Below, one piece after another: positions 7,382 through 59,751 of a stretch of DNA of 64,000 nucleotides. The notes under the pieces were generated by a model. It was not told where the DNA came from and searched no databases. It saw only the letters and a list, made by a program, of their open reading frames with translations. Position 1 is the stretch's first letter. Each line of letters opens with the position of its first letter. A program made the position numbers and the translations under genes. Location of the stretch: NCBI GenBank assembly GCA_021234155.1, contig JAJEKV010000138.1, positions 1,607,876 through 1,671,875 of the forward strand. The letters are read 5' to 3'. Origin of the DNA: Isoetes taiwanensis. Its lineage: Eukaryota > Streptophyta > Lycopodiopsida > Isoetales > Isoetaceae.

Positions 7382-9501
7382 TCAATTCCATGATTGTTCA
7401 ACCCACAGGACTGATTTTCTTTTTAGTATTCTGTTGTCCTGCCTTGAGCCATCAATACCATCTATTACTATTTGATCACCTACAGGCGTGCCTTGTATAC
7501 CATGTCCATCAATTTCCACATGCAATTCTGCCAGTTGCTGAGCTATGTGACTGGAAATGTAACCTTCATGGCATGAATTTGGGGGATCAAGGGACTTATG
7601 ATTATCAGATAGGTCTATTAATGGATATGAAAGTGGAGAATCAAGAATGGGTGAAAGTGTGGATGTATGCAATGAGGGGGCCTGAGTTTCCAATGGAACC
7701 ATTGTATCAATGTCATCTGCATCACAATCATTGTTCACCTTTGCAAGAATATCAAATATGTTTGAACATGGCAACTTATTTTGACATTCTGCATTGTCTG
7801 CAATTTTAGGTTCAGTTTGTATGCTTTCCATAATTAATGACTCCTCTTTTCCCTCTGAGTCATTTGCAACCTTAGGAATTGGAGCACTGCTGTGAATCTT
7901 CAAGGTTGGCTGGCAATTTCCTTTGGGATTATCTGAGATTTTAATCCCTTTGTGTCTTTCTGATGCTGCCTTTTTAGAGTCAAGCATAATACCCTTCAAA
8001 GTTTTGTCTGCGAGTCAAGTTCTTTTCTTTGCATGGGAGCCTTACCCTTGAGCATTGTTTTATTGTGCTCAATGTTTGTCAAATCATTTTTTTTATTTTG
8101 ACCATCAATGACTCTTTTGTTATCAACTGAGTCATTTTTGTTTGCATTCATGAAGAATAAACCTTTGTTCAAAATCTTGATTGTTGAAGGAGCAAGGTTA
8201 TAAGCTGTCTGACCATATGACATATTTGATAAGTCATTTTTTTCCTTTTTTTCCTCTAGTTGCTTCTGCTTGAATTCTTTTTTCCTCTGAATTCTTTTTC
8301 TGCTGCCATTAACTTTTTCATATGGCCTCCATTCTTGAGCATTATCCTGAGTGATAATATCTTTAAGCACATATTTATGCATGGACATGGGATCTCGAGG
8401 ATCTGGGTTAGAAATCTCAGAATTACCAGTGCTGCCAGTATTTTTGTTGTAAGATATATTCTGAGCATACTCCAGAATCTCTGAGTTCCCTTTGTCCCCT
8501 TTGATACTGCAAACAGAATGATTGAAATGCCTAGTTTTGCAATTCTGGCAAAAATTTGGTAATCCTACCCATCTCAAGTGAATGTTCGAAGGCTTACCAA
8601 AGAAGTCAATGAAGGGAATGGATGTAGGGATTGGTTTGGTAATATCAAGCTGAATGTAGCATTTAGGAGGCTTGAATGGGGAGAACTCAGAAGAGATGTA
8701 AGAGCCAATAGTGTTAAAGATTTTTGAGAAACAATCCTCATTCCAGTAAATAGGGGATAGATCATTCATGGTCACAGAGGCTATAACAAATTTGCCAAAA
8801 TCATTAATAATAAATGAGAGAGGGGTTCCACTTTTTGAAATAGATTTGAAAGGTGTTGAAGGTCGAATGTCCCAATTTCAACATAAAATTTGCAGTTCTG
8901 CTATTTCCACATTCCATTAAAAGGTAAGGAAAATTAAGCCAGTAGATGGAGTTAATGACAATTCCTTTGTGAAGTCTAAGCAGATGGTCCCAAAGGTGCT
9001 GTATATTAACACCAGCTTTATCAACAGAAATGACAACAGCAGTAGAAGATAAAGATTCAATCTTTGCAGCTATAGAAGAACTGTTCAGATGAATACCTTT
9101 AAAAAGTTGAAGATTTGGTCGGGTGAGGTACTGAAGGTTGTAGAATTCTTGAGTGAGATCTCGATCTGAAAGGATTTGCTGATTTGGCCTTGGATCCCCA
9201 TAAGGCAAAGGTACACCATTTGCATCCAGGACAGGTATGAAATCGTCATAACTTGGATCCTTAGAGAGGTTATCCCAGTGTGGCACGTCTGAGGAGAAGT
9301 GTTGCATTTCTTTTGAAAGAAAATTCAAATCAGAAAAATCCCCAAATTTAAGCACATTTGAAGGATTAGAGTGGAAAGAGCTTAAGCGGTCGAAGCGGAT
9401 CTCTACTTTTTTGGAAGGAGCATAAACTTGTGTAATAGAGAGTTGGCATTTAGGTCTTTTGGCAAATTTGATTTTTTTTTTTGTTTTCGGGAAAATTAGC
9501 C
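7382..9501 (-). pseudogene. LINE ORF1 (DUF4283-like, zinc-knuckle) in pieces
   Basis: ORF1 of plant L1 elements encodes a nucleic-acid-binding protein that packages the element RNA. Reading begins at an ATG near 9501 (MANFPENKKK), passes an A-rich run, and continues as a 183-residue open stretch at 8804-9355, a 259-residue stretch at 7996-8775 and a 205-residue stretch at 7382-7999. The 259-residue part matches the usual pattern of plant ORF1: a DUF4283-like middle ending in a cysteine cluster CQNCKTRHFNHSVC, which resembles a CCHC knuckle with unusual spacing. After that comes a low-complexity Lys/Asn-rich hinge. The pieces need frameshifts to join, so the gene is broken. Confidence 0.75.
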
Positions 9502-30409: not shown

Positions 30410-32242
30410 ATGTCCGCATCCTTGGAAAAGATTATAGATTCTTGCAACAAGAATAACCAGCATGTCGTTGAGAGGATACGACAATTAGGCAACGCAATCA
30501 TACGTTCGCAGGAGGTTTCGATCTCCGAGGCCACAATGCTTCTCCTCGACATGCCCCTGCATACGAAGACGCGAACTGTAATTTTCATTGATACGAACAT
30601 GCCGCAGAATAGGTCCAGGGTGTTGAAGACGAAAAAAGACCTGGCAAAGCTTGATCCTAATAGCATAGATATCCTCGCCCCCAACATTATCGACAAGTAT
30701 AAGAGGCTTAACGGTGAGTTTCTCGAACACATTAGCCTCGGCGATGAGCAGCCATGTTATACAAAAAAGGATGAGCATGGGCAATTTGTGAATAAAATGA
30801 GGAGGGACGAGATCGTGGGCAATCCGAAGCGGCCATGAAGTTAGGTATGTGAAGTTCAACGAGGATAAAGACATAGAAGGATGGGCGTACGAACGGCTTC
30901 TGTTGCATGTGCACTTCAGGACGGAACATGATCTTCTGGACGGGCACTCGAGCTACTATAGTGCATACATGGTGAAGCAAGAAGAAATCGGCGGCTCATA
31001 CAATGCTAACATTCCAAAGACACCGGGATTTGGATAGTTGGGGTGACATAGAGAGGATAGCCCGACGAGATCGGGTCACCATAGAACACAACGATCGAAT
31101 GAAGTCGAGGGAAGCGGAAGGCGAGGATGAGTTTGATGTAGGTTGAACCTTCCGTTATTACAATCGCATACGGTCTCCTCAAGAGTTACATGATGCAGAA
31201 TTGATTCCATCATTTATTAGAAACTCACCCCTTTCTGTCCATTGCAGGTGCAGAGGACGATGGTACCGAATAAACAAATCATGCCCAATGAGATGTACTA
31301 CACAATGGTGCAGACGCTAAGGAAGGGTCAACGATTCGTTGACACGGCGATATCATGTACAAAAAGATACATGACCCAACCCACAGGTACAACCTGTTTC
31401 TTACGGGCGGTGCGGGTGTGGGTAAGTCGCGTTTGCTACAGTGCCTCATTGAGGGACAAAAGCGGCTTTTTCAACAAGACCTCCCCGATGCATTGAACAG
31501 GCCATCGGTTGTCATAGCTGCGTACACAGGCAGGGCAGCAGATAATGTTGGGGGGATCACGCTGCACTCGGCATTTGGTATAAGACCAACAGCGGCGTTT
31601 GGGAATAAGATGACGATGCCCACGTCTGCGACGCTACAAACGGGAAGGAATGCCTACGAGGCGGTGAGACTGCTGGTCATAGACGAGATCTCAATGGTCG
31701 GGCTTCACCTCCTCTTCCATGTCGATGCATTATGCAACAAGTAAGTTATATCCCAGCTGACCTGCTGCCCGCAAGCCTACACGAGAAACAGGCATGTGTG
31801 ACTAACTCATTTGCGTGATTCGGTTTCAGGTACAAGGCCACTGCGACGCCCATACCGTTTGGGGGCATGTCAGTGATTGCAGCTGGGGACTTTTACCAAT
31901 TGAAGCCAATGTTTGACAAGTGGAATTTTTGTGACCCAGATGTCAACGACGCCGAACGACTAGGCTTCGTCCAGTTTCCAGACCTGTACCACTCATGGAA
32001 ATCGAATTTCAGGTACTATGAGCTGACCGAGATCGTGAGGCAAGGAGACGACCTTCCCTTTGCACATGCGTTGTCCCATATGAGGATATCAGAGCAAACG
32101 GTAGATGATTTGCACCTCGTGAATTCCACCTGCATCCGGCCAACACCTAGCGATCCGCGTCTTCCGCATGTCTTCCATAAGAACAAAGACACAGAGCAAG
32201 GCATCCTCATCCAGTCTATAGACACGCACGAGGATGGCTGTC
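30410..32242 (+). pseudogene. Helitron/Helentron PIF1-type helicase, N-terminal part
   Basis: The 142-residue stretch at 30410-30838 includes SQEVSISEATMLLLDMPLHT and TRTVIFIDTNMPQNR, the region just before the helicase in animal-type Helitron proteins. The helicase begins near 31150 after a probable intron ending at 31246. The 31355-31744 stretch has Walker A GGAGVGKS (residues 18-25) and Walker B LLVIDEISMVG (106-116). An intron at 31741-31829 (GTAAGT...CAG) keeps the frame. The next exon has GDFYQLKP (31885-31908) and the motif ELTEIVRQGDD. PIF1-type helicases unwind DNA during rolling-circle transposition. The frame is cut at 32242 by an LTR element and resumes at 37529. A frameshift near 31350 and stops make it a pseudogene. 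Confidence 0.85.
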
Positions 32243-34736
32243 TGTAACAGTCCTGGCCACCTAATGGGTCAATATACATATTTATGTATGTATATACATA
32301 TTCATGGCATGTATACAGCATGAGACCAGGGTTTTGTCTCTTTGGAGAAAGTATTGTTGCAGAGCATGAAGGCAGGGAGCAATTCTGGGCAGTTTTAGAA
32401 CCCGATTTTTGAAGCATCATATCTCGGCGACCCGAGATCCTTTTCAGGTGATTTTTCTTTTGCTGGAAAGATCATTAAGTTAGCTTTCCGGAATGGATCT
32501 GATCAGGCCGAAACTCATCCGTATGAGAACGTTATGACAGAAATTGTGATGCTGGGTCAGAATTGACTGCACTATGTATGTTCTTCTGCAGTTTGATTCT
32601 TGGAGTTAGAAGACGATCTTTGGAGGCGCAATCAATTGCAAGGGGTCCAGAGGTCTATCCGCGAAGAAATTCTCAGGTGGGGTTTTGCTTTTGATCAATT
32701 GAGGTGTGCTATGAGCTGCCATGATTAGTCTGCACATGATTTTTGCATGCAAATATGATAGATTATGAATTCGTTGGAGACTCATAAGGCTAGAGAAGAT
32801 AATCAACGATTGCAAACATCCCTGTAAGGCTGATTTTAAGGCAAGAATGGCTGAATAGTACATGAAGAGCACCGATTCAGCATGGAAACTTTAAAAAAGG
32901 CGTAATTAGATTGGATCCGGCTCGCAAGAGCTCTCCAACGCCATTTTGTGTTCATGTTATGTTTTTGTCATTTTGGTTTTGTGCTTTATTTTGTTGGTCT
33001 TGTATTTGCTGCCTTTCTCAATTTATTTGCATGTCCTAGTATGAAGCTAAGTCCTCATAGATGGAATTGGGTTGCATTCGAGCTTAGCAAAGCAGAGGAG
33101 ATCGAGCATGAAGAGTTTGAGCGGAATAATCATAATAGTAAGAATATGCATTGTTTGATAATTGTCTAACTATGGTAAAATTCTAAGGTTTGGGATAAAG
33201 TATCTTTCTTAGCTCATGGAGATGGGGCTAATCTTGAGAAGTAGTCTAGCACTGGATGTAGAGCGTCAACGACCCCCTCGGCATCAAGGATTTCAAAGCA
33301 TCAAGTTCGCATGTGGATCTTGAAATAGGAATAAGCGGTCATCTGACCTTAAGGATTATTGAGATTGAGACGGGTCCACATTAGTACAAGGAGAGCCATG
33401 TGAAGCTTGGGGGTTTCTGAATGTGGTTATAGCATGAAGTACTGCTAGTCTGAGTGCATAACTATAAGTTTTCAAGCTGTTGCATTGTATTTTATCAAGA
33501 GCATCATAGCTAATGGATTCGAAGTATAAACATTATGGAACGTTGTATTCCTCATGGGAGGATGATTTTGAGGTAAGTTTTGCAGTATAGAAGATGTTAG
33601 TATCTTTCCTTGATCAGTAACGTACATAGTTATTGGAGCTACATCAAGGTCAGTTAGGCTTATGGCTTCCTCGACGTGTTGGATTGCGATCATTATCTTC
33701 ATCAGTAACCTAGCTACTTCAACTTGGACAGGTTGTATAGACAACATCAGCAACAATATAATCTAGGCACATGATAGTAAACATTCTAATGAACTTCACA
33801 TGTCTTGGTCTTGCATTGTCCACTGTTGTCTTGGTATTTGATGTCTATTGAAACCTCTGGGGTCGGACTTCTAGGTTCGGTGGCCTAGGTTGCTCCGGCA
33901 TGCTCATGTTCATCTGTGATTCTCTATGGTATTCTTGTGCTCTGTGACACGGGCGTTAGTTCTCTGGCCCGGATTGCTTTCGTCGATCAACTCTTGTGAA
34001 CTCCATGGTAAGAGGTCCTCCAGCGGGCGGGGGGAAGGGTAAGGGATACGCAGGTTTAGTTTACCCACCAACTCCGCCTTGACGGGTTCGGAATGTGAGC
34101 TGGCGGGCATTTCTCTACGCTAACAGGGGCATGCATGTAGGCTGGCCGAAACTTCCCATTGTCCCGAGCTTTGTTATGTTGTTTTGGGTACTTTGGCTTT
34201 GTGTTCTTTGCTCCTGACTCTTATGATATTTCTTCTGTTGTCATTGTCTAGCACTGCACATAGTCTCTTGTATATTTGGAATTGTCTATGTTCTTGTTAT
34301 CCAAGATGCCCGAGTGTTTCCATGTATGCAGCAGCAGCTATGGGATCCCCACTTAGTCACGAGGACTAACCCCAGTGAGTGCATGTGCAGTGAACCCGCA
34401 AGGAGGCGGTCAAGTTGATGGTGGCAATGTGGCCAGGAATCGTGCTTGAGTTCTCGAGCTAGCAGTTTCTGTTGATTTGCTCAGTGCTATTGTGCATGTA
34501 TATTATAACGCATTGTAAATATTGAGATGCTTATTTGCTCAACTTGAGATTGTAATATACTAAGCTTATGAATATGTTGAATGCCTGAACCAGGATTGCT
34601 TGTTGAGCCTAAACTGTGGATTTAATTTGCAAAGGAAGATTTAATTCTTCACCTAAATTCACCTGTGCATAAATCTAGTTGAAAGTCAGACAAGATCCCG
34701 AGTTGCCCGGAGGGTCAACTCGGCAGGCTCGTCACA
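32243..34736 (+). repeat. 5' LTR
   Basis: It begins TGTAACAGTCCTGG, has an A/T-rich stretch of tatacatat-like text near 32270-32310 and ends gctcgtcaca. Open frames inside are short and are mirrored in the 3' LTR, so they are not genes. Confidence 0.93.
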
Positions 34737-35031: not shown

Positions 35032-37523
35032 TACAGATCCTGGCCACCTAATGGGTCAATATACATATTTATGTATGTATATACATATTCATGGCATGTA
35101 TACAAAGATGAGACCAGGGTTTTGTCTCTTTGGAGAAAGTATTGTTGCGAGCATGAAGGCAGGGGAGCAATTGCGGGCAGTTTTAGAACCCGATTTTTGA
35201 AGCATCATATCTCGGCGACCCGAGATCCTTTTTAGATGATTTTTCTTTTGCTGGAAAGATCATTAAGTTAGCTTTCCGGAATGGATCTGATCAGGCCGAA
35301 ACTCATCCGTATGAGAACGTTATGACAGAAATTGTGATGCTGGGTCAGAATTGACTGCACTATGTATGTTCTTCTGCAGTTTGATTCTTGGAGTTAGAAG
35401 ACGATCTTTGGAGGCGCAATCAATTGCAAGGGGTCCAGAGGTCTATCCGCGAAGAAATTCTCAGGTGGGGTTTTGCTTTTGATCAATTGAGGTGTGCTAT
35501 GAGCTGCCATGATTAGTCTGCACATGATTTTTGCATGCAAATATGATAGATTATGAATTCGTTGGAGACTCATAAGGCTAGAGAAGATAATCAACGATTG
35601 CAAACATCCCTGTAAGGCTGATTTTAAGTCAAGAATGGCTGAATATTACATGAAGAGCACCGATTCAGCATGGAAACTTTAAAAAAAGGCAGAATTAGAT
35701 TGGATCTGGTCGGCACCGAGCTCTCCAACGCCATTTTGTGTTCATGTTATGTTTTTGTCATTTTGGTTTTGTGCTTTATTTTGTTGGTCTTGTATTTGCT
35801 GCCTTTCTCAATTTATTTGCATGTCCTAGTATGAAGCTAAGTCCTCATAGATGGAATTGGGTTGCATTCGAGCTTAGCAGCAGAGGAGATCGGAGCATGA
35901 AGAGTCGAAAGGGAATAATCATAATAGTAAGAATATGCATTGTTTGATAATTGTCTAACTATGGTAAAATTCTAAGGTTTGGGATAAAGTATCTTTCTTA
36001 GCTCATGGAGATGGGGCTAATCTTTGAGAAGTAGTCTAGCACAGATGTAGAGCGTCAACGACCCCCTCGGCATCAAGGATTTCAAATCAAGTTCAAGATG
36101 TGGATCTTGAAATAGGAATAAGCGGTCCATCCTTACCTTAAGGATTATTGAGATTGAGATCGGTCCACATTAGTACAAGGAGAGCCATGTGAAGCTTGGG
36201 GTTTTTCAATGTGGTTATAGCATGAAGTACCGCTAGTCCGAGTGCATAACTATAAGTTTTCAAGTCAAATTTGCATTGTATTTTATCAAGAGCATCATAG
36301 CTAATGGATTGGTATAAACATTATGGAACGTTGTATTCCTCATGGAGGATGATTTTGAGGTAAGTTTTGCAAAGATAGAAGATGTTAGTATCTTTCCTTG
36401 ATCAATGAACGCACATAGTTATTGGAGCTACATCAAGGTCGGTTAGGGCTTATGGCTTCCTCGGCGTGTTGGATTGCGATCATTATCTTCATCAAGAACC
36501 TAGCTACTTCAACTTGGACAGGTTGTATAGACAACATCAAAGAACAATATAATCTAGGCACATGATAGTAAACATTCTAATGAACTTCACATGTCTTGGT
36601 CTTGCATTGTCCAATTATTGTCTTGGTATTTGATGTCTATTGAAACCTCCGGGGTCGGGACTTCTAGGTTCTATGGCCTAGGTTGCTCCGCATGCTCATG
36701 TTCATCCGTGATTCTCTATGGTATTCTTGTGCTCTGTGACACCGGGCGTTAGTTCTCCGGCCGGGATTGCTCGTCGACCAACTCTTGTGAACTCCATGGT
36801 AAGAGGTCCTCCAGGCGCCCGGCGTGGGCTGGAAGGGTATCTTGATACAGGTTTACCCCACCAACTCATGCCAATCTGGCTCGGAATGTGGTGGCGGGCA
36901 TTTCTCGCTAATGAGGGGCTGCATGTAGGTGGGCCGAGCTTCCCATTGTCCCGGAGCTTTGTTATGTTGTTTTGGGTACTTTGGCTTTGTGTTCTTTGCT
37001 CCTGACTCTTATGATATTTCTTCCGTTGTCATTGTCTAGCACTGCACATAGTCTCTTGTATATTTGGAATTGTCTATGTTCTTGTTATCCAAGATGCCCG
37101 AGTGTTTCCATGTATGCAGCAGCAGCTATGGGATCCCCACTTAGTCACGAGGACTAACCCCAGTGAGTGCATGTGCAGTGAACCCGCAAGGTGGCGGTCA
37201 AGTTGATGGTGGCAATGTGGCCGGGAATGCGTGCTTGAGTTCTCGAGCTAGCGGTTCATTGATTTGCTCAGTGCTATTGTGCATGTATATTATAACGCAT
37301 TGTAAATATTGAGATGCTTATTTGCTCAACTTGAGATTGTAATATACTAAGCTTATGAATATGTTGAATGCCTGAACCAGGATTGCTTGTTGAGCCTAAA
37401 CTGTGGATTTAATTTGCAAAGGAAGATTTAATTCTTCACCTAAATTCACCTGTGCATAAATCTAGTTGAAAGTCAGACAAGATCCCGAGTTGCCCGGAGG
37501 GTCAACTCGGCAGGCTCGTCACA
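35032..37523 (+). repeat. 3' LTR
   Basis: It matches the 5' LTR along its length, with many small differences. Its start reads tacagatcctgg where the 5' LTR has tgtaacagtcctgg, so the terminal TG is damaged. It ends CGTCACA followed by the target duplication ctgtc. Confidence 0.93.
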
Positions 37524-43999: not shown

Positions 44000-44765
44000 G
44001 CAAACTAATGCTGTCTTTGAGGCTGTGGGTGAGTAGAAAAGTCTGTCGATAAACTAATATGCAGAACAACGACCTCATCCCAATGGAAAAGTCGCAATTG
44101 TCCAAGAATGTACATCAACCTTATAAATAAGCTTAGTCCCATAACACTATTATTCTCTGCATTATTTGATTGTCATTACAGATCACTGAAAGCTAAAGTA
44201 GGAAAATAACAATTTTGCAGGTTACAGATCACTGAAAGCAAGGTCCGCCGGTTAGGACAAGGGATGATTTTGGAGTTGGCATCCTAGCAACAACAGCTCG
44301 TTGTCATGACAATCGGATCAAGTAGATATCATGCAACATTTATCCATACAATTAATAGATATCATGATGGATAGCGATCATTTATTGGAGAACAATCGTG
44401 AGATTGGAGTTGCATTGCAATGGCACTATTCAATATAGATGTTCCAAAGATAAGCTCCATCCCCAAAATAAGCATTAGCGAGAAACTACGGAAAGCAATG
44501 AGGTTGACAGGTCAGAATGAGAGAGCAGATCTCAACTAAAAGTTCATAAATGACAAGGAAGCAAAACATGGAAGCCATATAACCTTTCTAGTGTAAAAGA
44601 ATTTAAAAGGTGAAACAGTGTACGTCTAAATGGCTGACTGCAATACGGACAAAGTTGAGACCCATCTTTCACTGTAAATATGTGCATGAAACAGAGATTT
44701 GCAGAATCAAAAACTTGTTACTAAATGATAGTCCAATTGATTAGAGCCCAAGAACTTACTCAAAT
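44000..44765. other. No recognisable gene
   Basis: A 19-bp phrase, gttacagatcactgaaagc or nearly so, occurs twice (near 44178 and 44221). No gene, terminus or other structure is supported. Confidence 0.4.
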
Positions 44766-44885
44766 ATCTAGCATAATAACAGGGGGTTACTTTTAGATTT
44801 TTATACGTTTTTTCACATGGTTTTTCTATGATTTCATTGTTGTATTCGTTGAGGTGTACTAAATAGTATTTCTAGAGTGCACCCT
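44766..44885 (+). repeat. Truncated copy of the 3' end of the ParB/methyltransferase-like unit
   Basis: About 115 bp match 55728-55845 in the same orientation: atatctagcat-ataacaggg, tttttatacg-tttt, catggttttc-atgatttcat, gtattcg-gagg, and tctagagtgcacc. At 55.7 kb this sequence encodes the hydrophobic C-terminus of copy 2 and its stop. The copy at 44.8 kb has small indels and no coding frame. Confidence 0.85.
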
Positions 44886-47159: not shown

Positions 47160-48470
47160 CTTGGTAGATCTCGAAAAGCTTGGCTTGGCTTGGCCATGGC
47201 GAAATAGAAGAGAACAGAGAAGGTGGAGATTAGAATGGCAGTGAAATCCGAAAGGACGAGATCGAAATAACGGAGAGGTCGAATACTCCGCAGGCAAATA
47301 CTTGCTTTTCTAATTTTCCTGACCCTACGATCAGAAAATAAAGAATCGGATGGCTAAGAAAGAAAACAGCTGACGTGGCAGGACATGTGGCATAGCTCAG
47401 AACGCAGGAAAGTGGGCAGGGGGGGTTAGGCAACCCTGCTAAAAATTGGTGATTTTTTTTCTAGGAAACAGTTTTTCTTTAAATTTCATTTGGAAGTTAG
47501 AATGTTATTTTAATTTGTGCTTTTGCATTTTGAGTGTGCATCATCGAATGTTTATCTAAAAGGTTGATAGCTCCCATTGTTTTTGTTGGTCCATCAAAAA
47601 TATCATTTTTCTAGAAGTTCGAATGTTATTTTAATAAGTGCTTGTTTTAGTAGCTTGTACATGAGGTTAATTAAATGTTTATTTGAATGCTCCATAGCTC
47701 CAATTTTTTTTCCCGAGATAGATAGCTTATTGCACCAAGATCGCATTATTACACTCAATCGTATAGGAATGTCTTGTACCTTGTGCTAGAAAGTATTCAA
47801 GGTCCTCATCCTTGGAAGTGTAGCCTTAAATAAGAGTATTTGATCCACATGTTTTATTTTATAGGTTCTATTACTTACGTCTACAAGAAACTTATCGCGG
47901 CGGCCAGGCCGCCGCGAACGTTTCTCTTCCCCAACTCGTCTATGCATGCTGGAACATGCAGAATTTGAACCTGCATTTTGTTGCTTTGTCTTTAGTACCT
48001 GCACAATAGAAGAATATTGATCATAACGACTTGTTACGGAAGATGTTTTGCATTAAATCAAAAGAGCATTTCTCTTCACTGAGATATCAGAAAAAAGGAG
48101 TGTCTCATCATCATCCCGTATCCATGTGCTAGAACCTGCTTACTGATCGACAATCACAAGTTCCCAATTTTGTTTTAAACATAAGACAACATTCATACAT
48201 TAAAAGCTTTATTAATTATTATTGCATTCACAAAAATTGGTGTCTGTTTCTGCCAGTGATGAGTGATGACCTGTTCTTTTGTTTTTGAGGCCCTACATCA
48301 GGAACTTTAGAAGATCAGAGTAATGAAATTGTCGCTAGCTCATCTTCACGCATAATAATGAGAAACATAAAAATGGAACAGATATAGAAAACACAACAAT
48401 AAAACTTGTATACATCAAAAGCAGTTAATAAATTAAACAGAGACTTCCACGTTGGTAATTTCATATGAAC
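47160..48470. other. No recognisable gene; one GC-rich hairpin
   Basis: A/T-rich sequence. At 47896-47916 lies a perfect hairpin, cgcggcggcc-a-ggccgccgcg, unusual against the background. No other feature can be supported. Confidence 0.5.
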
Positions 48471-48471
48471 A

Positions 48472-49640
48472 CTAATTGTTTGCTGAAATCATCATTCTAC
48501 CAGCTGCTAAGATTGTCTGGTAGTGCATGTAACGACTAGCTTTTGGCATATATGCAACTGAGCATTTACCATATGCATTATGACTGCTAGAACTTGTGCT
48601 CCCAATTTCAAATCTGTAGAACGAGGCACTCAAATACCCTGCAGTTACTTGGTACAGGAAATGCCCCAAATGAAGAACAATATCTTGTAGGCCAAGACCA
48701 CAATCAGCAATCAGCAAGAAACCAGCGTCCTTGAGAATCCCAAATCTGAAGTCCTGATCTATCTGAGCAATTGGGCATGCTGCTATCCTGCCAAACTCAT
48801 AGGGGGCTGATGAATCCTTGATCTTCTATGGCAATATACGGAAAGATTTGATGAGGGAACTTCCCCATGCTGCATGAACATCAACCATGTGTTCCTTGTA
48901 ACCTTGTGTTAGCTTCTGCACAACATCGCACTAGAATGGCAGATCACAATTCAATGTTTGGGCGCCCCCAATTGAGGAAGTTTTAGCTTCGGATGGGAGA
49001 TCTTAGAGGGTGAAAGCATGCTAGGGCCTACATAAAAAATTACCAAAAAGGTACTTTTCTGTGTACTTCTATGCAAGTACATAATTGTATTTTAAAGTAC
49101 CTAGACTACAAGCTTGACTAAAAGAAATTGTGTTATGTTCAAGAGTAGTAGTACATACATGTTGTAAGGTACCTTGTGATGTCAACAAGATGTTAAGAAC
49201 CCAAATATATCATCATCTTTGACTACCCAGAGTATTTTCCAGGTAGTTTCCAAAACATGTAGACCCTAGCATGCTCTTACCCTAGAATTTATTGCCACGT
49301 AAAAAAGCAAGAAGGGCGAGATTGTCTGCAAAAAGAAATGACGGAAAATTTGAAAGGACAAACCCAGACCCTGTGAACGCACCACAAAAGCTCCAGAAGA
49401 ACAGGATCATTCATGGCAGATTTGATGCATTAACAGTTCCAAGCATTGCTCAGATGTGAAGCTGCAAGAAAAATACTCACCGATGAAGCATCCTCTAGCT
49501 TTAGTTTTAGTACATATGGTAAGCAGGCAGATCGAAAGTTAGCTTCTGAGATTTCTTTTGCCAGCCCATTGACACGAATAGGCTGTAAATCATAGGCCAA
49601 TACCGGAACGAGGACCTGTTTCCCTCAAGCCTGATGGCAA
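48472..49640 (-). pseudogene. Unidentified exon-like fragments
   Basis: Minus-strand text shows at least two coherent pieces. One (about 49620-49480) reads QVLVPVLAYDLQPIRVNGLA, then KEISEANFRSACLPYVLKLK and LEDASS before a GTGAG donor. The other (about 48960-48472) reads KEHMVDVHAAWGSSLIKSF, APYEFGRIAACPIAQIDQDF and LLIADCGLGLQDIVLHLGHF. A stop interrupts the second. They look like exons of one host gene, but I do not recognise it. Confidence 0.4.
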
Positions 49641-49649
49641 AACGGCCTT

Positions 49650-50250
49650 TAAGAAAACGGCCTTTGTTTATCAACCTTGAAGGGCTCTAGGCCAACCTGT
49701 CCTTCCCTCTGAAACACATGCTCCTATGATGAAATGCTCTGTTATTTAAAAGAATGAAACTCGGCTATGCCAGATTGCCCACATGTAATACCTGATCGCT
49801 GCCACACAGAGAAAACTTGAGGTCTCTGCCATCGCCAACATCCAGGCATCTAGTTGCGATGGCATTGTTGCGTTAAAATTGCAGAGCTCGCTGCTCGCCG
49901 GAATGGGGGAGAGGAACTGGAAAAGCAGAGCGGAATCTTGCCTTTGAAGAGAAGCAATGTATATGACGTCACATGCGTACATCAGTTTTTTTCTCGAACT
50001 GGTTCGCTTGGTTGGGTTGGAGCTTAAAGGAATTGACCACCACGTGTCAGCAGGAGCTTGTCTCAAATAAATAGCATCAAATAAATAGGAAAAGTTTGGA
50101 AAATTGTCACTGCTTTATATATGAATGAAAGTAGAGTGGCTTCATTTTGAATATGTATTGAAAGTGTAGATACTAACACATTGGCTAGAAATTCCTATCT
50201 CGTGTAATTTTCAATGTTTAAATTTTAAACTTAAGGACCACCATATACTT
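49650..50250. other. No recognisable gene
   Basis: Left flank of the palindromic array. Small open frames have no motif I can name. Confidence 0.4.
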
Positions 50251-50253
50251 CAG

Positions 50254-51065
50254 TAACCTCCAACACGTGTTGGAAGTTACTTAGGTGCTAATAGCCTTCA
50301 TGTATGTCATGCTTCTGTCTTGTTTTTAGAAGCTGCCGTATTATTACTTCAACATTTAGCATGTAAAATTAAGGTTCTATTGTTCGAATCGTTATTCTCA
50401 AGTAACTTCCAATACATGTTGGATGTCTTTATTGCTAGTAGCCTTCTTGTGTGTTTTGCTTTTGTCCATGGTTTTCTAGAAACTCCCATCTATTGCGGAT
50501 TCTAGATTCCAACATTTAGCATATAAAGTCAAGGTCATCTTCCAATCTTTATTCGTAAGTAACTTCCAACACGTGTTGGAAGTTACTTCGGTGCTGGTAG
50601 CCATGTTTGTAATGCTTATGTTTGTTATGCATTTGTCCTGCTTTCCAAGAAGCTGCCACGAGTGTGATGCTTCATTTGTGATTGTTTTCTTCATGTCCTT
50701 TACGTCATATTCTTTCAACACATGTTGGAAGTTAGACGTCGAGCTAGTGGCCTGAGTGTCATGCTTCATTTGTGATTGTTTATGCTGATGCCAGCACTTG
50801 TATCTTCAGATACGTGTTGGAAGTCAACTCTTTTGTTTTGTACTTTCGTGCTAGTAGTTCCGATGAGTCTTACGCCACTTCTCTTGTCTTTTTGAAAGCT
50901 TCCTACTTCCAACACGTGTTTGAAGTTAACTATCCTGTACTTCAGTGCTAGTAGCATCACTTGTGATGGCTTTCTAGATGTTCTTATATTTTCCAACACT
51001 GAGCAATATTTTGTTGGGCAAACCTTTCTTCTTAAGGAACTTCTAACGCGTGTTGGAAGTTAAAA
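50254..51065. repeat. Array of palindromic units (CCAACACGTGTTGG family)
   Basis: Seven palindromes or near-palindromes lie at 50254, 50403, 50557, 50714, 50804, 50905 and 51038. The best, 50557-50588, is a perfect 32-bp palindrome with arms aagtaacttccaacac. Between them recur phrases such as gtgctagtagc, catgcttttgt and tttctagaagctgcc, so the units are diverged tandem repeats of about 90-170 bp. The centre, cacgtg, is also a G-box, but the long arms suggest a structural or element-specific role. The same units fill the large intron of the gene at 52188-55834. Confidence 0.9.
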
Positions 51066-51069
51066 GTCT

Positions 51070-52187
51070 TGTAATCTAGCACTAGTAGCTCCAATACATA
51101 TATCATTTTGCCAAGACCTTTTGTGAAAATATTGTTTTCTAAGTAGCTGATATGGAGCATGCTAGGGGGAGTGGTCCAGAAGATTAAGGCAATAGGGCAC
51201 ATGGAAACTAATGGTTGTAAGGCAAAAGAATAAGGGCGAAATATTCTACATACAACTATATTTTCCATAGCTAAGGGATGATATTTTATGAGAAAAGGCA
51301 CATGCAACTATCTTTGTCAAAAAGGGTGCGATATTTTAAAGGGAAGTTCATGCAACTATATTTTAGCAAAAAGGCTTACGAATAGAACAGAATGTGGCCT
51401 TAAACAAAAGAGAGAACCAAACTGTTATAGCAGTGGTCATGCACATTAAGGAAGCGAAAAACTCGATAGCAATTTCGCATCAATGAATCGGGCCACGGGT
51501 GCATCCTCAAATCCGTGAAAGCGTGACTTCCGCCATCATTTTGCGGCATCATCAAACTAGCTTCCGCTCCCGCCATTGAATCCGCATCAATTGCTAGCCG
51601 ATTGAGCAAAAGGAGTTATAAGAGATTCTGGTTTACGGGTGTTGCTTCTTAAATTCGATCTGCGGGGACTCTAAACAGTTTGGGAGTCGATCTTAAGAGC
51701 TTTGTTCTTTTGAACAAATCAAGATTGAATCGAGCCTATTCTTGACAGTTCTTCTTGCCTAAGCATATCAAAGCCTTATGCCATTGTATTTTGGGGAAGA
51801 TCATGTGTTGAAGGAAAAAGCCTTGATCTTTCCTTTTCCTAAATCCCTTGGAATTGCCTTAGTTTTTCTGGACCCGGTTGGATGGAAACTGGATGCTCCA
51901 ACCCCTGGTTGTGGAAACCTTGTACAATCGCTCTTGAGAAGAGCTGATATAAGAATCTAGTTATTATCTCTTCTGTTTTCTATCTCTTAAACTGTTGAAC
52001 AAGTGGTTATTACCTTTAAGTTTCCTTAAATCATATCAGTAGCTTCTAACGCTTGTTGGAAGTGTGCAAGATAACATGGCCATTTTGTAGTGCATACAAT
52101 GATCAATTATATTTATTTTGAACTTACAATTGTTATGCATGAAGCCTAATGCCTATGAGCCTAATGCATGCACGTTGAATTATTATA
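51070..52187. other. Flank of copy 2; one palindrome, no gene
   Basis: Region between the palindromic array and the ATG at 52188. One weak palindrome (cttctaacgc-ttgttggaag) lies at 52043-52062. Promoter elements cannot be fixed. A 60-residue frame at 51778-51960 has no known motif. Confidence 0.45.
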
Positions 52188-55100
52188 ATGGAGCAAAGAC
52201 TAAGAGCTTCATCTCTGGAAGACTTGCAACCTGTGCATTACCAAGAATGCAAAGATCTCTTGGGTCGAATGTGGTGTTTTGAGGTCATACAAGGTTACAC
52301 TGCCTACAATGAAATTTGTTTACTAGACGATGAGAAACATGTATATGGCATCTTGCTAAAAATTGATGAAGTTCCTGGAGAAGATGGAAATTCGATGCTT
52401 GTGGCTGTTACTGAGGATATTAATGATGCAAGTATTAAAGGGTTTGTTGTATCCTTCGAGAATTTTGACGTCTCTTGTATGACAAAATCAGATGACGTGA
52501 ATATAAGTTGTAGGCGATATGGGTTGAAATTGCCAGATTACACAAATGCTGAGAAGGCTGGGATTTGTAGCATTGGGGATATCACATATTCTTTGACCAT
52601 TGTTTGCACAAGATTGTCAAAGGAAGAGACAACGTCAAAAATTTATACAAAATACAATAAAAAAAATTTCCCCCAGGTGCTATAAGTTGTAAAAATCTTA
52701 TGAAGAAAAGAAAAAGTACGAAGAAGGGTACAAAAGATGAGAGCGAAAATGATAAGAGGAAAATAGATAAGAATGGTGGTCCAAGGAGAAGAACTAAAAG
52801 TACAAAGGGTGCTGTTGACGAATCTTCTGAGCAGATGGCCGATACGAATAAACAGATCGTTGTTTATCAAAAAGAAAGTGCTTCCATGGTATTAGAAAAG
52901 CCAAGGAAGAAAAGGGATATTGATGAACTAGATAGGGAATGTTGGAAAGCCCATCCAAAAAGAGAAAGGGAAAGAAACATGTACCAACAACAGAGGAAGC
53001 TTTATCTGAGTTTCAAAAATACTATGTTTTTGGTTTTACCAATCCTTTGATGATAAGGGTTGAGAATTGCATAGTTCCGGATATCAAAAGTAAGCCAGAG
53101 TTTGCTCAGTGGAACTATAGGAAGTTAAATTGAAAACATGTGGAATGGTTGAAAAAGCAAATGATGGAACATCCTTCTATAGAGGTAGCTGACTTACTCA
53201 CAATTGATCCACATACAATCAAACCTCATGAAATAAAAAATTTGAGTGAAGTGTATAATGATAATATTAAATTTGTTGTCATTTGCGGGTCAACACTCAA
53301 TGATGGCGATGCGGATGCTTTCTAAAAAAAGTGATGAGTTTAAAGCAAAGTGGAGAATGCGTGCAGTACGAATTCTTTCACATGAGACTCCTACGTTGAA
53401 ATTGATGAAAATATCTGCACAAACTAACCTGAAACATGAAAAAAATAGATTTGTATCTCCATTCCAAGATAAAGTAGAGCAAGCGAGGGCTCAATGGAAG
53501 ATTATGAATTGTCCTCCAAGGGCTGAACAAGGAAAATCTACCCCGAAGGAATTTAAGGTTGTAACAATGTCTTTTAACTTCCAACACACATTAGATGTGA
53601 TTCCTTCCCATCTAATCTATTAAATGTTTTATATTTTATTTCAGAATTATGAGGAAGTCGTAAAGCTCACTTTTGGCAAAAGTTCAGTAAATGAGATCCA
53701 CAATCTCATAACGCCGGAAAGAAAAATATTTGATAAGTGGATTACAGCTATGGAGATGTTTAATGAGGGAAGTTGCCTGGAGAGCCTAAAAGTGGCAAGG
53801 AAATTTCTATGTCATTATTTCGTTATACAATCCAATTGAAGCCCAATGAAATGGAAAAAAACAACAGATGCTCTAATTAGGGGGACAATTGCTTGGGTGA
53901 AAGGAACAAATGTTCTTAGCTTTCAAGAGTTACAGATAATTTAAAGCAGGATATTGAAGGAAGTTGTTGTTCAACACTTGAGGAAATACACCCGTCTTTC
54001 TAGTTTGACAATTCAAAGAATACTGAATGAAAGCCCGAGTATTCGTGCATCATGGAATGAGCTCAGAAGCTATTGTGAAAGTTGGTGTAAAGCCCAACTG
54101 AACAGTCGCCAAGCAAACTCGCAAATTCCAGCATGGGAAAGTTATCAATTGGAGAGTTTGTGGGATAAAGATCATGGGCATTCAAATTTGAGAAAGCATA
54201 ATGTGGTCATGGTGTATGATGTGGGATCGAGGGCCAGTAAAGTTAATGAAGTAAAACATACTGAAAGCAATAGGTCCATATGCTTAATTGTCACACATAC
54301 GGATGGTGGCTGGCAAAAGGATAACTTCAAGATGTTATTGGGTTCGATAACAGATATCAATGCTGAGGTAATTGTCAATGCTTTTCTATTTGAAACTTTT
54401 ATAATAGAATTGTAGAGTTTTCATTTTCTTTATTTTCTAGAATGTTCTTGCCTATACCTCCAACATGTGTTGGAAGTCAAATAAAGGGTTGTATGCATTG
54501 GATTGTGCTAGTGCCTTCCATCTAGTGCAACTTCCAACTCACGTTGGAAATCTACCATATAATAAGACATGTGCTCTTCAATTTTAGCATTGCTTCATTC
54601 GGTCACCTCTTATGTAGTGTATCTTTCAACTTCCAACACGCGTTAGAAGCTCAATAATGCTAGTAACTCCCATGAATTTCAGCTCTAACACATTGGCTAG
54701 AAACTTTCATGTAGAGTAACTTTCAATATATAACATATCATAGGCACTTTTTACCTTCTTTTTCAAAATTTTCTTCTTAAGTAACTTCCAACACATGTTG
54801 AAAGATAATCTTTTTGTAATTTAGTGCTAGTAGGCATTATGTGTGTCATGCTTTTGTCATCGTTTTCTCAAAGCTTCCAAGTTGTTATCTTCCAACACGT
54901 GTTGGAAGTTAGATATGTTTTGTATGTTTTTCATTCCTTTTTGTAAAAATAATTGGCAACTTCTTTCTATTCTCTTTATTTTCTAAGAATGTTTGATTCT
55001 TTTGTGTACGCAGGAATCATACTCTTTCTTATTCTTCCTTAGCCATATGAGATACAAAGCTGTATTGATGTACTTACTAAGTTAGAAGGGAAAGTCCAAT

Positions 55101-55834
55101 AGGCGTTTGGGTACCATGAATCAAGCTAAGATAAAGGAAGTATAATATCTGTGAAAACATATGTTGTGCTTGCACTTGTTTCGAAATCAAGGAAAAGCAA
55201 TCTGGATAACCTTGTACAAGACACGTTGTCCTTGGAATTTTAAAATGATGATGAGATTTCGTTGTATGATCCCGCATCCAACATCCTAAAGATAGAAACA
55301 TCGTCAAAAGATCTATATTTGTGGCCTTTAAGTTACTCAATGATAGGCAGAGATCAAGTTGGTCCTATTGTAAAGGATACAATTTCAAGAAGTGCTATCC
55401 TTCGTTTTATAAACTGTTTGTCAAAGTCTAACCAGACAATAGTAGAGGTCACCTGTGGTAGAAACATTGCAAGAGAGGCTTTGTTGATGGATAGAGAAGG
55501 TTTGGTGTTCACAGAATCAATAGCTCAAAAGACGACAATTGAGGCGATCGTGAGCATTTTTTCAGGACTAAGTTTGTTTCAGATATTTATACCAGCTCGT
55601 TCAACACATTCACATAGTCAATTACCGCAAAGGGAATCTTCAAAGTCCAAAGGGGATGAACATCTTGAAGTTTTATCATCTAACTCAGCATCCACATCAT
55701 CAAGTTCTTATGGATCAATATCAATATCTAGCATTATAACAGGGTTTTTTTTTGTGATTTTATACGCTTTTTGGCATGGTTTTCATATGATTTCATGGGC
55801 GTATTGCACGAGGCATACTAATCAGTACATCTAG
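52188..55834 (+). pseudogene. ParB-like and beta-class methyltransferase-like gene, copy 2
   Basis: The first exon (52188-52685) encodes an unknown 165-residue domain. Next comes a Lys/Arg-rich linker (52700-52930), then EEALSEFQKYYVFGFTNPLM (about 52998-53057). A ParB-like FVVICGQHS near 53270-53305 is read across a frameshift. It is followed by RVVRIL-like and NCPPRAEQG (53505-53535). Introns: 53558-53644 (87 bp, GT...CAG, phase 0) and 54368-55013 (646 bp, with five palindromes). The last part (55262-55834) has IVEVTCGRNIAREALLMDRE (residues 60-79), like methyltransferase motif I, and a hydrophobic C-terminus ISSIITGFFFVILYAFW. In-frame stops occur at 53131, 53837, 53941, about 55078 and 55234. 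The DPPY motif is not visible. No named family is known to me; the reading is inferred. Confidence 0.5.
54368..55013 (+). other. Large intron of copy 2, filled with palindromic units
   Basis: The donor is gag|gtaatt and the acceptor gtacgcag|gaatca, and both sides are in the same phase. Palindromes lie at 54456, 54529, 54628, 54782 and 54887 (atcttccaacac-gtgttggaag). The phrase tttagtgctagtaggc at 54820 also matches the array at 50.3-51.0 kb. Confidence 0.75.
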
Positions 55835-55845
55835 AGTGCACCAAG
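55728..55845 (+). repeat. 3' end sequence shared with 44766-44885
   Basis: This is the hydrophobic C-terminal coding end of copy 2 plus about 10 bp after the stop (tctagagtgcacc). It recurs at 44.8 kb without the rest of the gene. Confidence 0.85.
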
Positions 55846-56139
55846 TTTTTGCATGCAATTTGTGCAATTTTTGTTTCATCCTCCTCAATGGTTAAGATTA
55901 GAGGGCTTACAAAGAAAGCCCTCTTTTAATTAAAAAAATCCAGGGGCTTATAATGAAAGCCCTTTTCTCATGAAATTCGAGACAACTGGAATTAGGGCAC
56001 GGCTAGGGTTTGTTTGATGTTGAATTCGATAACCCATCACGTTAATCCATTGATAGATGCCAATATTTCCGACTTGCAACTCCTGAGCAGATTATATTGA
56101 ATCTGCAGATTGCTGGCAAGGCTTCAATCAAGCCAGGTA

Positions 56140-56800
56140 TCCCTGGCAACCAGAGCAGGCGCGAATCAACCAGGTAGGTGCAGACCAGTCTGAACAGACA
56201 CCCCCATTTACGGGTAATGTATTTTCGTCGTCTGATCTTCTCTTCCCTCCTTCTGGGGCTCCACAAGTAATTCCGGCCTCCATTCCTCCTTTATACCCAA
56301 CGTTAAATCCTCCTTTTTTGCCTCCTGCACCCACAGTCCCTTCCGTTCAAGCACCATCTATCTCTCCAATAAGAAGTGTTGATCAGAATCCGTACCCTCT
56401 TTTCCCACCTGGTCTTATTCCTGGTATGGTTAGGAAGATGCAGATAGGTAGTGGTGTTCCATATTCGTCATTGAGCCCCTTAGACATTCCAACAGTCCCG
56501 CCATCAATGACTGCAGAGAGCTATATTATGAAGCGTGTAGCGAAATGTTTTAAGGAGATTGGAGAAGTGGATCCCCTGGATGGTCGTACTAAACAAATTC
56601 CTTTAACTGAAGAAGATGGTCTTAGTTATGAAGAGGATAGAGATAGACATAGGGATGGTGGTGCAAGGATTCCACCCCCTCCGCATATGCTGATTGATCC
56701 AGACACAGGTACTCTTCCAGATGGTAGCATGGAGCACAGGCCTAGGTTTCTTCTGGAAGATTAGGTCTACGTGCAGCTGCATTTTTAGGACGTTTCGATC
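56140..56800 (+). pseudogene. CHERP-like splicing factor fragment
   Basis: An open, proline-rich stretch leads into [19 protein letters not shown], then [18 protein letters not shown] and [16 protein letters not shown]. This follows the block of CHERP (a SURP and CID domain splicing-associated protein) that in animals reads as a 'PPGL-x2-x-K...LDP-DI-PP' pattern. The next segment, [20 protein letters not shown], is typical of the plant homologs. A one-base frameshift near 56745 moves [11 protein letters not shown], the expected continuation, out of frame. No SURP, CID or G-patch domain lies nearby, so this is an internal fragment. I am sure of the plant family look, less of the exact family name. 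Confidence 0.65.
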
Positions 56801-56879
56801 TGCACCGTTTAATGCCTATGTCATTTCATGCTTTACAAGGCATGTTTTGTCATGCTTTCAGCATCCAAGGTTCCAGTGC

Positions 56880-57200
56880 AATACAAGGAAACAGCAATAC
56901 AAGGTTGACTTGAATAACCTAGTTGGTTCAGGGCCATATGGTCGTATTGTAGCATCTGACGTTGAAATTACTGCTGGGAAAAAGCCTACCGTTTCTTCAG
57001 CTGTAGCTGAATCTCCTAAGGATCTGGTCCCTGCTGCTTCAGCAGTTTTAGCAAAAGTAGGATCTAAGGTTGTGTCTTCAGATGGTGCCCTTATTGTTCA
57101 CAATAAGGAGGTCCCTTTCACTGCCATGCAAGCTGCAGTGGCTCGAAATATGGTGGAAAGCCTTTCAGTTCCCACATTCAGGGTTGGATGGATAACAGAA
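56880..57200 (+). pseudogene. Chloroplast pyruvate dehydrogenase E2 fragment
   Basis: E2 (dihydrolipoyl acetyltransferase) of the plastid pyruvate dehydrogenase complex makes acetyl-CoA for fatty acid synthesis. Here the frame reads KQQYKVDLNNLVGSGPYGRI and VASDVE (residues 67-91 of a 187-residue frame), the end of the E1/E3-binding domain. A short Ala/Ser/Pro linker follows, then VPFTAMQAAVARNMVESLSV and PTFRVG (140-165), the start of the catalytic domain. Similarity stops at GWITEM. No lipoyl domain and no catalytic HxxxD are present. It directly follows the CHERP-like fragment on the same strand, with about 100 bp between. Confidence 0.88.
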
Positions 57201-57259
57201 ATGATACCATCTTCTATAGTAACTAGAAACTACTATGTTTATTTGCCAATAGTATAACT

Positions 57260-57800
57260 TTATGCTCTCTTTCCTGCATCATGTGCGAATTTGTTTCCTT
57301 TTTTCCTTCCATTTGCTCCATTATCATAAATCATTTAGAAGTATGTCTGGGTTTTTAAAAGTTTATGTGCAAACCTATACAGAGGACTGTGGTCATTCTT
57401 GTACAATCGTGCAATTGTTGCGGTTCCTACCTAGTCTCATAATTCTCTTTTTATTTTGTATTAAAAGACAGGAGACTAGCTTGTGTCTTTTCTACCATTA
57501 TAAATGGTTGCCTAACCCAAAGCTATATGCATGTATGGATGTATGCAACTTGGAGAAAAAACAACAAGGATTTAATAAATTATTATTATTAATAAAGGAT
57601 TTGTTCATTATTAATAAATTCTATTATTACATGCTACCTCATGTATTAATATTGGTATTGGTATAATATTATATGTCTAATTCTATGCAATGTTTTCATT
57701 TCCATAATTTGAGCACCTCTAGTTTGTTAGATTTGTGAGGCTATGATATACCATCCATCATTAGAGTATTAGGTAATGTTTATATCTACACCCCTACACC
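57260..57800. other. No recognisable gene
   Basis: A/T-rich sequence with an open frame of 134 residues (57262-57666) that has no motif and a low-complexity look. It is not called as a gene. Confidence 0.4.
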
Positions 57801-57807
57801 ATCCTTA

Positions 57808-57965
57808 AGGCCCCGAAGGGGCCAAAACATTTTTTAGTTAACACAAACCATTAACACACAACTAACATTATTAACACAAACCATTGCATTTGACACATTT
57901 AAATTAAAATCCCCCTTAAGCCCCCTTTGGTTTGGTTTGGTTTGGTTTGGTTTGGTTTGGTTTGG
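57808..57965. repeat. Dispersed repeat family A, copy 3, truncated by a (TTTGG)n run
   Basis: It begins ggccccgaaggggcc, a short palindrome, then the A/C-rich tract with aacacaaaccattgca, and then cctttggtttgg, which runs into eight or so TTTGG units (57925-57965). Copies 1 and 2 read gtttgggtgca at this point. Confidence 0.85.
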
Positions 57966-58054
57966 GAGATAGTATGGAAAGCTCTTTAAATAAAAAACTT
58001 GAAGAATCCAATTGGTGAACAAGAAATTCTAATAGTTGGACAAGAAGATCATAA

Positions 58055-59751
58055 ATGCAAACAAATACTCCAATAGTTGGACAAGAAATAGAGGGTAATG
58101 TAATGGAGGGTAATGCAATGGAAGGAGATGGCATGTGTGGATCATCGCAAGATCCAAACTATAAATCTGGTCAAGTATTGATGGCATCTCATGATCCTAA
58201 TCCAACAAAAAACCAGGAGCAGAGAGACAAACAAAGAAAGGGCAAATCGTTACGAACCTCAGGTGATAATCTTTTAATCAATTCGAAGTTTCAGAGGTCT
58301 TCTGGGCCTAGTGAGTGGAAAATTGTTAGAGAGATAGCAAAGAATGGAAAATTAATGAGTATGGGTCCAACTTAGGCTATGATGCACGAAATTAAAATAG
58401 TTACATCAAGCACATGTTGGAAGTTATGTAAATTAATCAATGCAATTTCTTATTCATAGAAATATGATCTTTGCTACAAGTACTATGGAGATAACTTTTC
58501 AATATATTTGACTTTAAATTGTTAAGATTCTATTTACTATTACAAGTTTCCTAATGTATAATTATGATGTTTGAGATACATAAAATATAAATAATATAAT
58601 GTATCACGAGTTAGGGTTATAGCATTGAAAACTATTTTAATATATTGTAGTTTTATGTATTTAATATTTCATGGAAGTTGCACTAATGACTTTTTGTTCA
58701 TAGATGTTGAAAGTGTCCCTCAAACATCTTCATTTATTACAAGAAGGCTTATTATCCTTGACATGAATAGAGTACTTCTAAATGTGAGCACCAAGAGTAT
58801 AACAAGTATAAAATAATAATCAGGCCAGATTGTGCAGAATTTATAAATGAACTTTTGAAGTTTCTTGAAGTTGGAATTTGGACCACAATGTCGGAGACTG
58901 CCCTCATGATTTGTTTGAAACAAATTGTCCAAAATGATGATGGTTTTAAAATTTTATGGACTCAACATAAGTGCACAAACTTGGGCTACAATAAGCTCTT
59001 TCATAAGAAGCCCTTTCTTATTAAAGATCTTAGAAAGGTATGGAGAAGGTATCCAGAGTACAATGCTCATAATACTATAATGGTTGATGACGATTGCAGA
59101 AGATCTTTTAGAAACCCTTGTATATATTCTGGAGATGAATCAGACAAATTTCTTATGAATATATTGGATCCTTCACTTGCAGCAGATATGATCACTGCTG
59201 CTGTTTCACTGATCTCATCATTATCAGTACCTACTCTAACATATGGCCACAACCCCTCAACCAAGAAGACAAAACTAAGACGGTGTATCCTCGACCGCAA
59301 TCGCGTGCTATTATTGATTAGTATTTCGATAGGCTTCGAAGTAGTAATCTGGTCTTCGATGGCTGAAAGGTGAAAGGTGAAAGGTGTGATCATGTGGCAG
59401 ATTTGCCTCCTACAATCACAAAAGGAAAACGTGTAATGATAAAGAAGCTCCAGCGCGTCTATGAGGCATTTCAGAATTACAATAAGCACAACACTATCAT
59501 CATCGATGATAGCACCTACAAGTGTTATCACAACTCCGATAACGCAATCATTGCCAAAATATATGACCCTGAGGAGTTTGAAACAGATAAGTAGCTTGCA
59601 CTTAAACTGATTCCTGTATTGGCTGAGTTCCCTTTTTAATTCTTTTGGCGGATGTTTTGTGAAATTATCCAGAGCTCAAGGAGGTTGACGAGGAGAACAA
59701 ACGCATCATGGGGGCGATGGACATAAAATTTTATGGTGATCCCACTGAATG
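58055..59751 (+). pseudogene. Tandem FCP1/NIF-like phosphatase domains (HAD family)
   Basis: FCP1-like domains are Mg-dependent aspartate phosphatases of the HAD family. The first exon-like stretch (58055-58375) is unknown, with short repeats (EGNVMEGNAMEGDGM). The first HAD domain (58713-59160) has RRLIILDMNRVLLN, where the usual DxD is D-M-N as in a plant subgroup; then RPDCAEFINEL and FLEVGIWTTMSE (motif II), DLRKVWRR and NTIMVDDDCRRSF (motif IV). A second copy follows at 59280-59600 with CILDRNRVLLL, FEVVIWSSMAER, KKLQRVYEAF and HNTIIIDDSTYKC. A last piece near 59670-59750 reads PELKEVDEENKRIMGAMD. Stops and shifts break the frame near 58815 and 59370. A palindrome of the 50-kb type lies at 58409. 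Confidence 0.75.

Follow-up and report, generated by a model that had tools for sequence, protein, structure and literature searches.

A dead copy of a repeated gene family in Isoetes taiwanensis, with ParB-like and methyltransferase-like regions and nearby palindrome arrays

A broken gene and its surroundings

In a 64,000-nt stretch of the quillwort Isoetes taiwanensis genome (GCA_021234155.1, contig JAJEKV010000138.1, positions 1,607,876–1,671,875 of the forward strand), called the window here at its full length, we studied a gene that opens with an ATG at position 52188 and that an initial annotation, made from the letters alone, had described as joining a ParB-like motif to a methyltransferase-like motif I. 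The gene is a pseudogene, a dead copy belonging to an unnamed quillwort family with dozens of loci. The reading frame seen by the initial annotation is real, and the gene stands beyond chance because it has at least 43 DNA matches in the genome and because the ratio of nonsynonymous to synonymous substitution rates (dN/dS) is well below 1 among the stop-free exons of its relatives.

All features of the locus given below lie on the forward strand unless stated otherwise. Upstream of the gene, eight sites of the palindrome CTTCCAACACGTGTTGGAAG, found by a search allowing up to 4 mismatches, form an array at 50257–52062, with starts at 50257, 50406, 50563, 50712, 50804, 50906, 51040 and 52043. 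Exon 1 (52188–52660; from open reading frames (ORFs) and homology) encodes an N-terminal domain of unknown fold and changes frame at a run of eight A (52659–52666); this region has a tblastn match in 20 of 25 sequences (24 loci fetched from the genome and the window itself). A basic linker follows in a second frame (52661–52935) and, after a further frame change near 52936, a ParB-like region (52942–53557; ORFs and alignment) with a TGA at 53131–53133 and a frame change at about 53288 (53287–53290). The last of these falls within what had been read as a continuous FVVICGQHS: both parts are present (53272–53299), but FVVICG and QHS occupy different frames, and relatives with an open frame read FVVIAGQHSM at this GQHS motif. 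The 87-bp first intron (53558–53644) has GT-AG splice sites and, in a comparison of coding frames, four relatives (L103, L117, L119 and L123) are likewise broken at this place. Beyond it lie a helical region and the first half of a methyltransferase-like region (53645–54367; ORFs and alignment), with in-frame stops at 53837 (TGA) and 53942 (TAA), a second GT-AG intron of 646 bp (54368–55013) carrying palindrome sites at 54457, 54531, 54630, 54785 and 54889, and the second half of the methyltransferase-like region (55014–55724), which has a frame change and, before 55244, stops at 55040, 55100, 55127 and 55241. Near its end, alignment places a motif-I-like segment, IVEVTCGRNIAREALL (55439–55486), which reads EVNCGGN in relatives. 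The frame from ATG 52188, the 87-bp intron, the NCPPRAEQG motif (53507–53533) and this late segment are all as initially annotated.

The gene end had been set at 55834, and this position falls inside an insertion, because homology to the other copies breaks off at 55724 and picks up again at about 57965. The insertion (55725–57964; 2,240 bp, no strand assigned) lies outside the gene, contains an E2 (e3-binding) exon together with a dispersed repeat of high copy number, and is missing from the seven fetched copies that span both flanks (L101, L103, L105, L106, L107, L109 and L111); it is also present in a paralogous region, L112. In the ORF with which the annotated gene had been closed, the last 39 residues belong to the dispersed repeat. 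Downstream, homology identifies a broken remnant of a tail exon (57965–58364), followed by one palindrome site with 4 mismatches (58404–58423) and, after an ATAG acceptor-like site, an exon for a NIF/FCP1-like phosphatase recognised by Pfam (58704–59370), which has one frame change and an ORF at 58771–59370.

Several further observations concern the surroundings. The dispersed repeat occurs at window positions 55723–55842 and 44763–44883 and gives that closing ORF its false C-terminus; a query that included it returned 4898 first-look candidates. The insertion ends in a (TTTGG)n run, and L112 parallels window positions 48284–58229, insertion included, over about 10 kb at 81–84% identity. Farther upstream lie Helitron-like ORFs for an AAA/PIF1-like helicase (31343–32244) and a pair of 2.5-kb direct repeats that are 94% identical and about 300 bp apart (32247–34736 and 35033–37523).

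Relatives and palindromes in the Isoetes genome

Relatives were sought in 1,658,258,908 bases on 1,110 contigs. It is the first 1.4 kb of the gene that gives the 43 or more DNA matches, at about 31 places counted with the window included, and the first ORF of one relative gives at least 99 protein matches; both counts are lower bounds on matches, of which several per locus are common. The initial annotation had allowed for there being no homologs anywhere, and we found instead that relatives are numerous and that L103, L117, L119 and L123 retain long open exons, while many other copies have stops or frame changes. We fetched 24 loci (L101–L124; 219,123 bases, 0.013% of the genome) together with L131 and L132, in stretches of 5–10 kb. 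By identity they form four groups (L101–L115 with the window, L116–L118, L119/L131/L132 and L121–L124), with the fragment L120 left outside. In pairs for which the ratio was computable, dN/dS by the Nei-Gojobori method on stop-free exon pieces of relatives was 0.07–0.31; dS between groups ranged from about 0.7 to saturation, and many saturated pairs gave no ratio. The copies with open exons are under purifying selection. Their product has an N-terminal region, a basic linker, the ParB-like region (FVVIAGQHSM), a helical region, the methyltransferase-like region (ending in EVNCGGN[IV]AREALL) and an acidic tail, and the order of conserved regions, including the phosphatase ORF, is the same across the four groups. 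Two of the loci, L105 and L106, are a 10-kb inverted duplication. At homology breakpoints in L116 (about 1358–1389) and L117 (about 7810–7843, both in gene orientation) we observed a CCCAGC hairpin with CTAG in inverted copies; these breakpoints, once candidates for element ends, were reread by eye from the hairpin and CTAG as Helitron 3′ ends.

Palindrome sites were counted with up to 4 mismatches to the 20-bp CTTCCAACACGTGTTGGAAG in the window and fetched loci and with up to 2 mismatches genome-wide. The window holds 15, of which eight are upstream of the gene, five in intron 2, one before the phosphatase ORF and one at 24788; a search of the window with the 18-mer core, allowing up to 2 mismatches, gave nine sites, with 0.01 expected from shuffles. 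The 24 loci contain 241 sites, with none in L120 and L124, and 309,538 bases of viral loci, which are not a matched control, contain none. Palindromic sites precede the start in most copies, and two of the four groups also have them in introns. Of 19 copies whose start was mapped, 16 have sites within the fetched upstream stretch, all four groups being represented; in addition, L131 has six upstream sites and L132 four. Intragenic sites occur in the groups of L101–L111 and L121–L123. In the group consensus sequences the half-site is constant and the centre varies. No upstream stretch of at least 250 bp aligns between L119 and L123 or between L121 and L123, and the half-sites agree between groups despite this non-aligning DNA and a dS of about 0.7 to saturation.

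Genome-wide we found 1078 sites, compared with 0 in a reversed control, and 129 of them fall inside L101–L124. Exact searches with two centre variants gave 12 and 3 sites; for 9 of these 15, a listed family hit is no more than 3.5 kb away. The palindrome sites are thus linked to the family genes, in a linkage only, with many sites elsewhere. Among 143 distinct sites the centres are CACGTG (21), CACATG (19), CATGTG (15) and CATATG (11). The parS site of Spo0J/ParB has a CACGTG core; we do not claim that the palindrome is parS, because its centre varies as CpG decay would give.

The palindrome is also carried by a long interspersed nuclear element (LINE) family (L125, L126, L127, L129 and L130), as a pair 68–69 bp apart in four of the five loci; the assignment is based on a reverse transcriptase in L129 and on alignment for the other loci. 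At L128, two palindromes stand beside a Transposase_21 ORF (about 1624–2166), with a SET-domain ORF at 3–689. A link to CACTA (tnp2) elements was considered and dropped, since for most of the tnp2 copies listed the match ends at residue 125–127 of 159, before the palindrome-bearing end; eight listed rows extend to residue 141–149. A tblastn comparison of the L128 tnp2 and SET ORFs with the window and 31 fetched loci gave only two short matches, both over the palindrome, and no tnp2 part in the family loci.

Identity of the encoded regions

Both motifs are kept in relatives, with FVVIAGQHSMxAM in six of six aligned copies and EVNCGGN[IV]AREALL in seven of eight alignment rows; the window copy reads EVTCGRN. 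In the four aligned copies the place expected for DPPY, set by eye, reads NIGP, DVGS, NVGP and SIGP, none of which matches the catalytic motif IV, [DNS]PP[YFW]. Since these residues stand where DPPY is expected, methyltransferase catalysis looks unlikely, in agreement with the suggestion of the initial annotation that the protein could be a catalytically dead relative.

Viral profiles were built from 88 ParB-methyltransferase proteins kept from 92 loci (12 phage records, the rest IMG/VR contigs, whose ORFs were chosen because they contain DPPY). In the set of 1,623 six-frame ORFs from the window, the best hit of the ParB profile was in this gene, at the FGF stretch (8.5 bits, 52936–53130; not significant), as was that of the methyltransferase profile (4.9 bits, 53840–53941; not significant). 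The best window hits of the motif X/I profile fell outside the gene, none of them significant. Profile searches listed no PF02195 (ParB) at E limits of 1 to 10 and no significant match to PF01555 (beta-class N4/N6 methyltransferase). Profile-profile comparison with hhalign gave weak ParB scores in two competing registers. With Spo0J-type ParB, the family profile sets RFVVIAGQHSMRAMQLL on RYEIVAGERRWRAAKLA, that is, GQHS on GERR. For the methyltransferase part hhalign gave no significant match to methyltransferases, the EVNCGGN segment being set weakly (E 0.19) on the VLDSFGGS of motif I. Two AlphaFold (AF2) folds of the window sequence alone both failed, with mean predicted local distance difference test (pLDDT) values of 34.8 and 36.9. 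Searches with the window protein found no relative in phage and plasmid records or in IMG/VR and GTDB contigs, and searches with the family alignments found none in IMG/VR and GTDB; the contig scans prefilter on short peptide patterns. Because the profile hits are insignificant, the registers conflict and the folds failed, we infer the domain names from motifs. The initial motif reading holds up to the extent that GQHS and CGGN are kept in relatives. The domain names are not proven: intact members resemble a DNA-binding domain of ParB type followed by a methyltransferase-like domain that is inactive.

The downstream phosphatase ORF is recognised by Pfam as NIF-type (PF03031), scoring 48.6 bits in the window, 69.5 in L121 and 75.6 in L103 against a cut-off of 21.8, with E-values of 9e-13 to 5e-21; in other copies it was recognised by eye. 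In all five copies compared, a stop closes the tail ORF, at the same place in L116, L121, L123 and L124, and the phosphatase exon begins at an ATAG common to the copies. We saw no splice donor common to the copies for a tail-phosphatase join.

Interpretation and known systems

The reading we prefer, and hold tentatively, is that the dead gene in the window comes from a repeated Isoetes family, selfish or derived from a transposon in all probability, whose protein probably recognises its own arrays. Judged from its motifs, this protein would combine a ParB/sulfiredoxin-like domain with a methyltransferase-like domain of beta-class order that has no recognisable catalytic motif. A dimer would bind its putative sites, the inverted CTTCCAACA half-sites within the arrays, and this binding would mark or regulate its own gene copies. 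The methyltransferase-like domain may bind S-adenosylmethionine (SAM), DNA or a partner with no methylation taking place, and the NIF-type phosphatase, if on the same message, might be an effector whose target is RNA polymerase II or some other phosphoprotein. In favour of this reading are the size of the family, the order of regions conserved in four groups with the NIF ORF included, the low dN/dS, the upstream palindromes, whose half-sites agree between groups that are otherwise far diverged, the genome sites that fall inside or close to family loci, the best hhalign match to Spo0J-type ParB and the precedent in algal transposons.

Several observations weigh against this proposal. Neither a transposase nor terminal repeats nor target-site duplications were found in the fetched stretches of the family loci. 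Fusion of the tail to the phosphatase is unproven because a stop closes the tail ORF. Upstream sites are missing from L102, L104 and L112, L111 has only one, and the introns of L116–L119 have none. For the exact 22-mer, only 4 of 338 genome sites fall in L101–L124; of six such sites that were fetched, some chosen as pairs, five lie in the LINE family and one at the tnp2/SET locus. Among unlinked variant sites, of which five of six were fetched, L135 and L137 are arrays of 9 and 13 sites with no family coding within 2 kb, the remaining three loci having one or two sites each. On the side of the protein, HMMER searches of Pfam, PHROGs, NCBIfam and PDB gave no ParB or methyltransferase match, column shuffles reached the score of the Spo0J register in 27 of 150 cases, and the profile of phage ParB favours the other register, at the FGF stretch FGFPLPIMINVHNCII, where 0 of 150 shuffles score as high.

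Part of this evidence would suit an ordinary, expanded host nuclear family, with segmental duplications and with arrays that are promoter and intron minisatellites bearing a host transcription-factor site; CACGTG is also the core of the plant G-box. Purifying selection, the kept introns, the inverted duplication of L105 and L106, the paralogous 10-kb region L112, arrays that occur with no gene and the lack of a visible transposase or termini all agree with such a family. The many scattered copies with stops do not, nor do palindromes that also lie in the introns of two groups and are kept across groups at a dS of about 0.7 to saturation, and we consider this explanation rather unlikely. We are similarly doubtful that the domain names are wrong, with GQHS and CGGN resembling the known motifs by chance in a lineage-specific protein that has another fold. 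The disagreement of the two ParB registers, the failed folds, the motif X/I profile hits elsewhere and the lack of a significant match in any database or in hhalign to methyltransferases would all follow from such an error, but the aligned copies keep both motifs, in the order that they have when a ParB domain precedes a beta-class methyltransferase. An accessory gene comparable to those for the algal ParB-methyltransferases, on a non-autonomous DNA transposon moved in trans, would need a cognate transposase, overlaps our preferred reading and seems improbable, in that the gene-adjacent arrays resemble subterminal repeats but the L128 ORFs gave just two short palindrome matches in the loci and L116 and L117 have sharp ends that by eye resemble Helitron 3′ ends inserted alongside.

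Returning to a protein that recognises its own arrays, a bolder form of the idea, which we regard as a long shot, is a eukaryotic self-recognition cassette: the ParB-like protein would load on arrays marking its own copies and spread as a clamp, the dead methyltransferase and a phosphatase of the carboxy-terminal domain (CTD) type would control family expression or silencing, and the palindrome would also have been captured by an unrelated LINE. More generally, purifying selection together with the upstream palindromes provides a concrete, testable candidate binding site for ParB-methyltransferase proteins, and the family would also show that a prokaryote-style site-recognition module has long been kept in a plant genome.

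Among known systems, Spo0J/ParB with parS resembles the Isoetes family in its GERR-like position by best alignment and in palindromes with a CACGTG centre near the gene; it differs in that the Isoetes score is not above shuffles and the palindrome centre varies as a CpG-decay series. Profile searches of the Isoetes protein found no helix-turn-helix domain. Phage ParB-methyltransferase fusions share the order of the Isoetes protein (ParB-like, motif-IV position, motif X/I position), but the 12 phage fusions have a GHGR-type motif and DPPY, and the Isoetes methyltransferase part lacks significant profile similarity to them. NIF/FCP1-like phosphatases (PF03031) match the downstream ORF, which may encode a protein separate from the ParB-like part. 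In the portion of PMC5512222 covered here, which treats phage and plasmid polyvalent proteins, the word plant is absent.

The initial annotation knew of no named plant family with this pairing, and the literature searched (ParB with methyltransferases, plants and transposons) yielded no report from a land plant, which does not prove absence; a precedent does exist in an algal transposon, in the single paper that this search gave on the pairing in eukaryotes (PMC12477816). According to the part of that paper covered here, Sola1-1_Ec32 of Ectocarpus encodes an accessory protein of 1104 amino acids with ParB-like and N4/N6 DNA methyltransferase domains that is proposed to bind and modify its own transposon, and such proteins of eukaryotic transposons are accessory genes of unproven use. 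Compared by description only, and within that coverage, the algal and Isoetes cases share both regions in one large eukaryotic protein with repeated copies, whereas the Isoetes family is from a lycophyte, has no transposase found and no DPPY, and stands alongside palindrome arrays and a NIF ORF. We read the family as a land-plant variant of the algal ParB and methyltransferase pairing; new in it are the palindrome sites, the loss of the catalytic motif and a neighbouring phosphatase.
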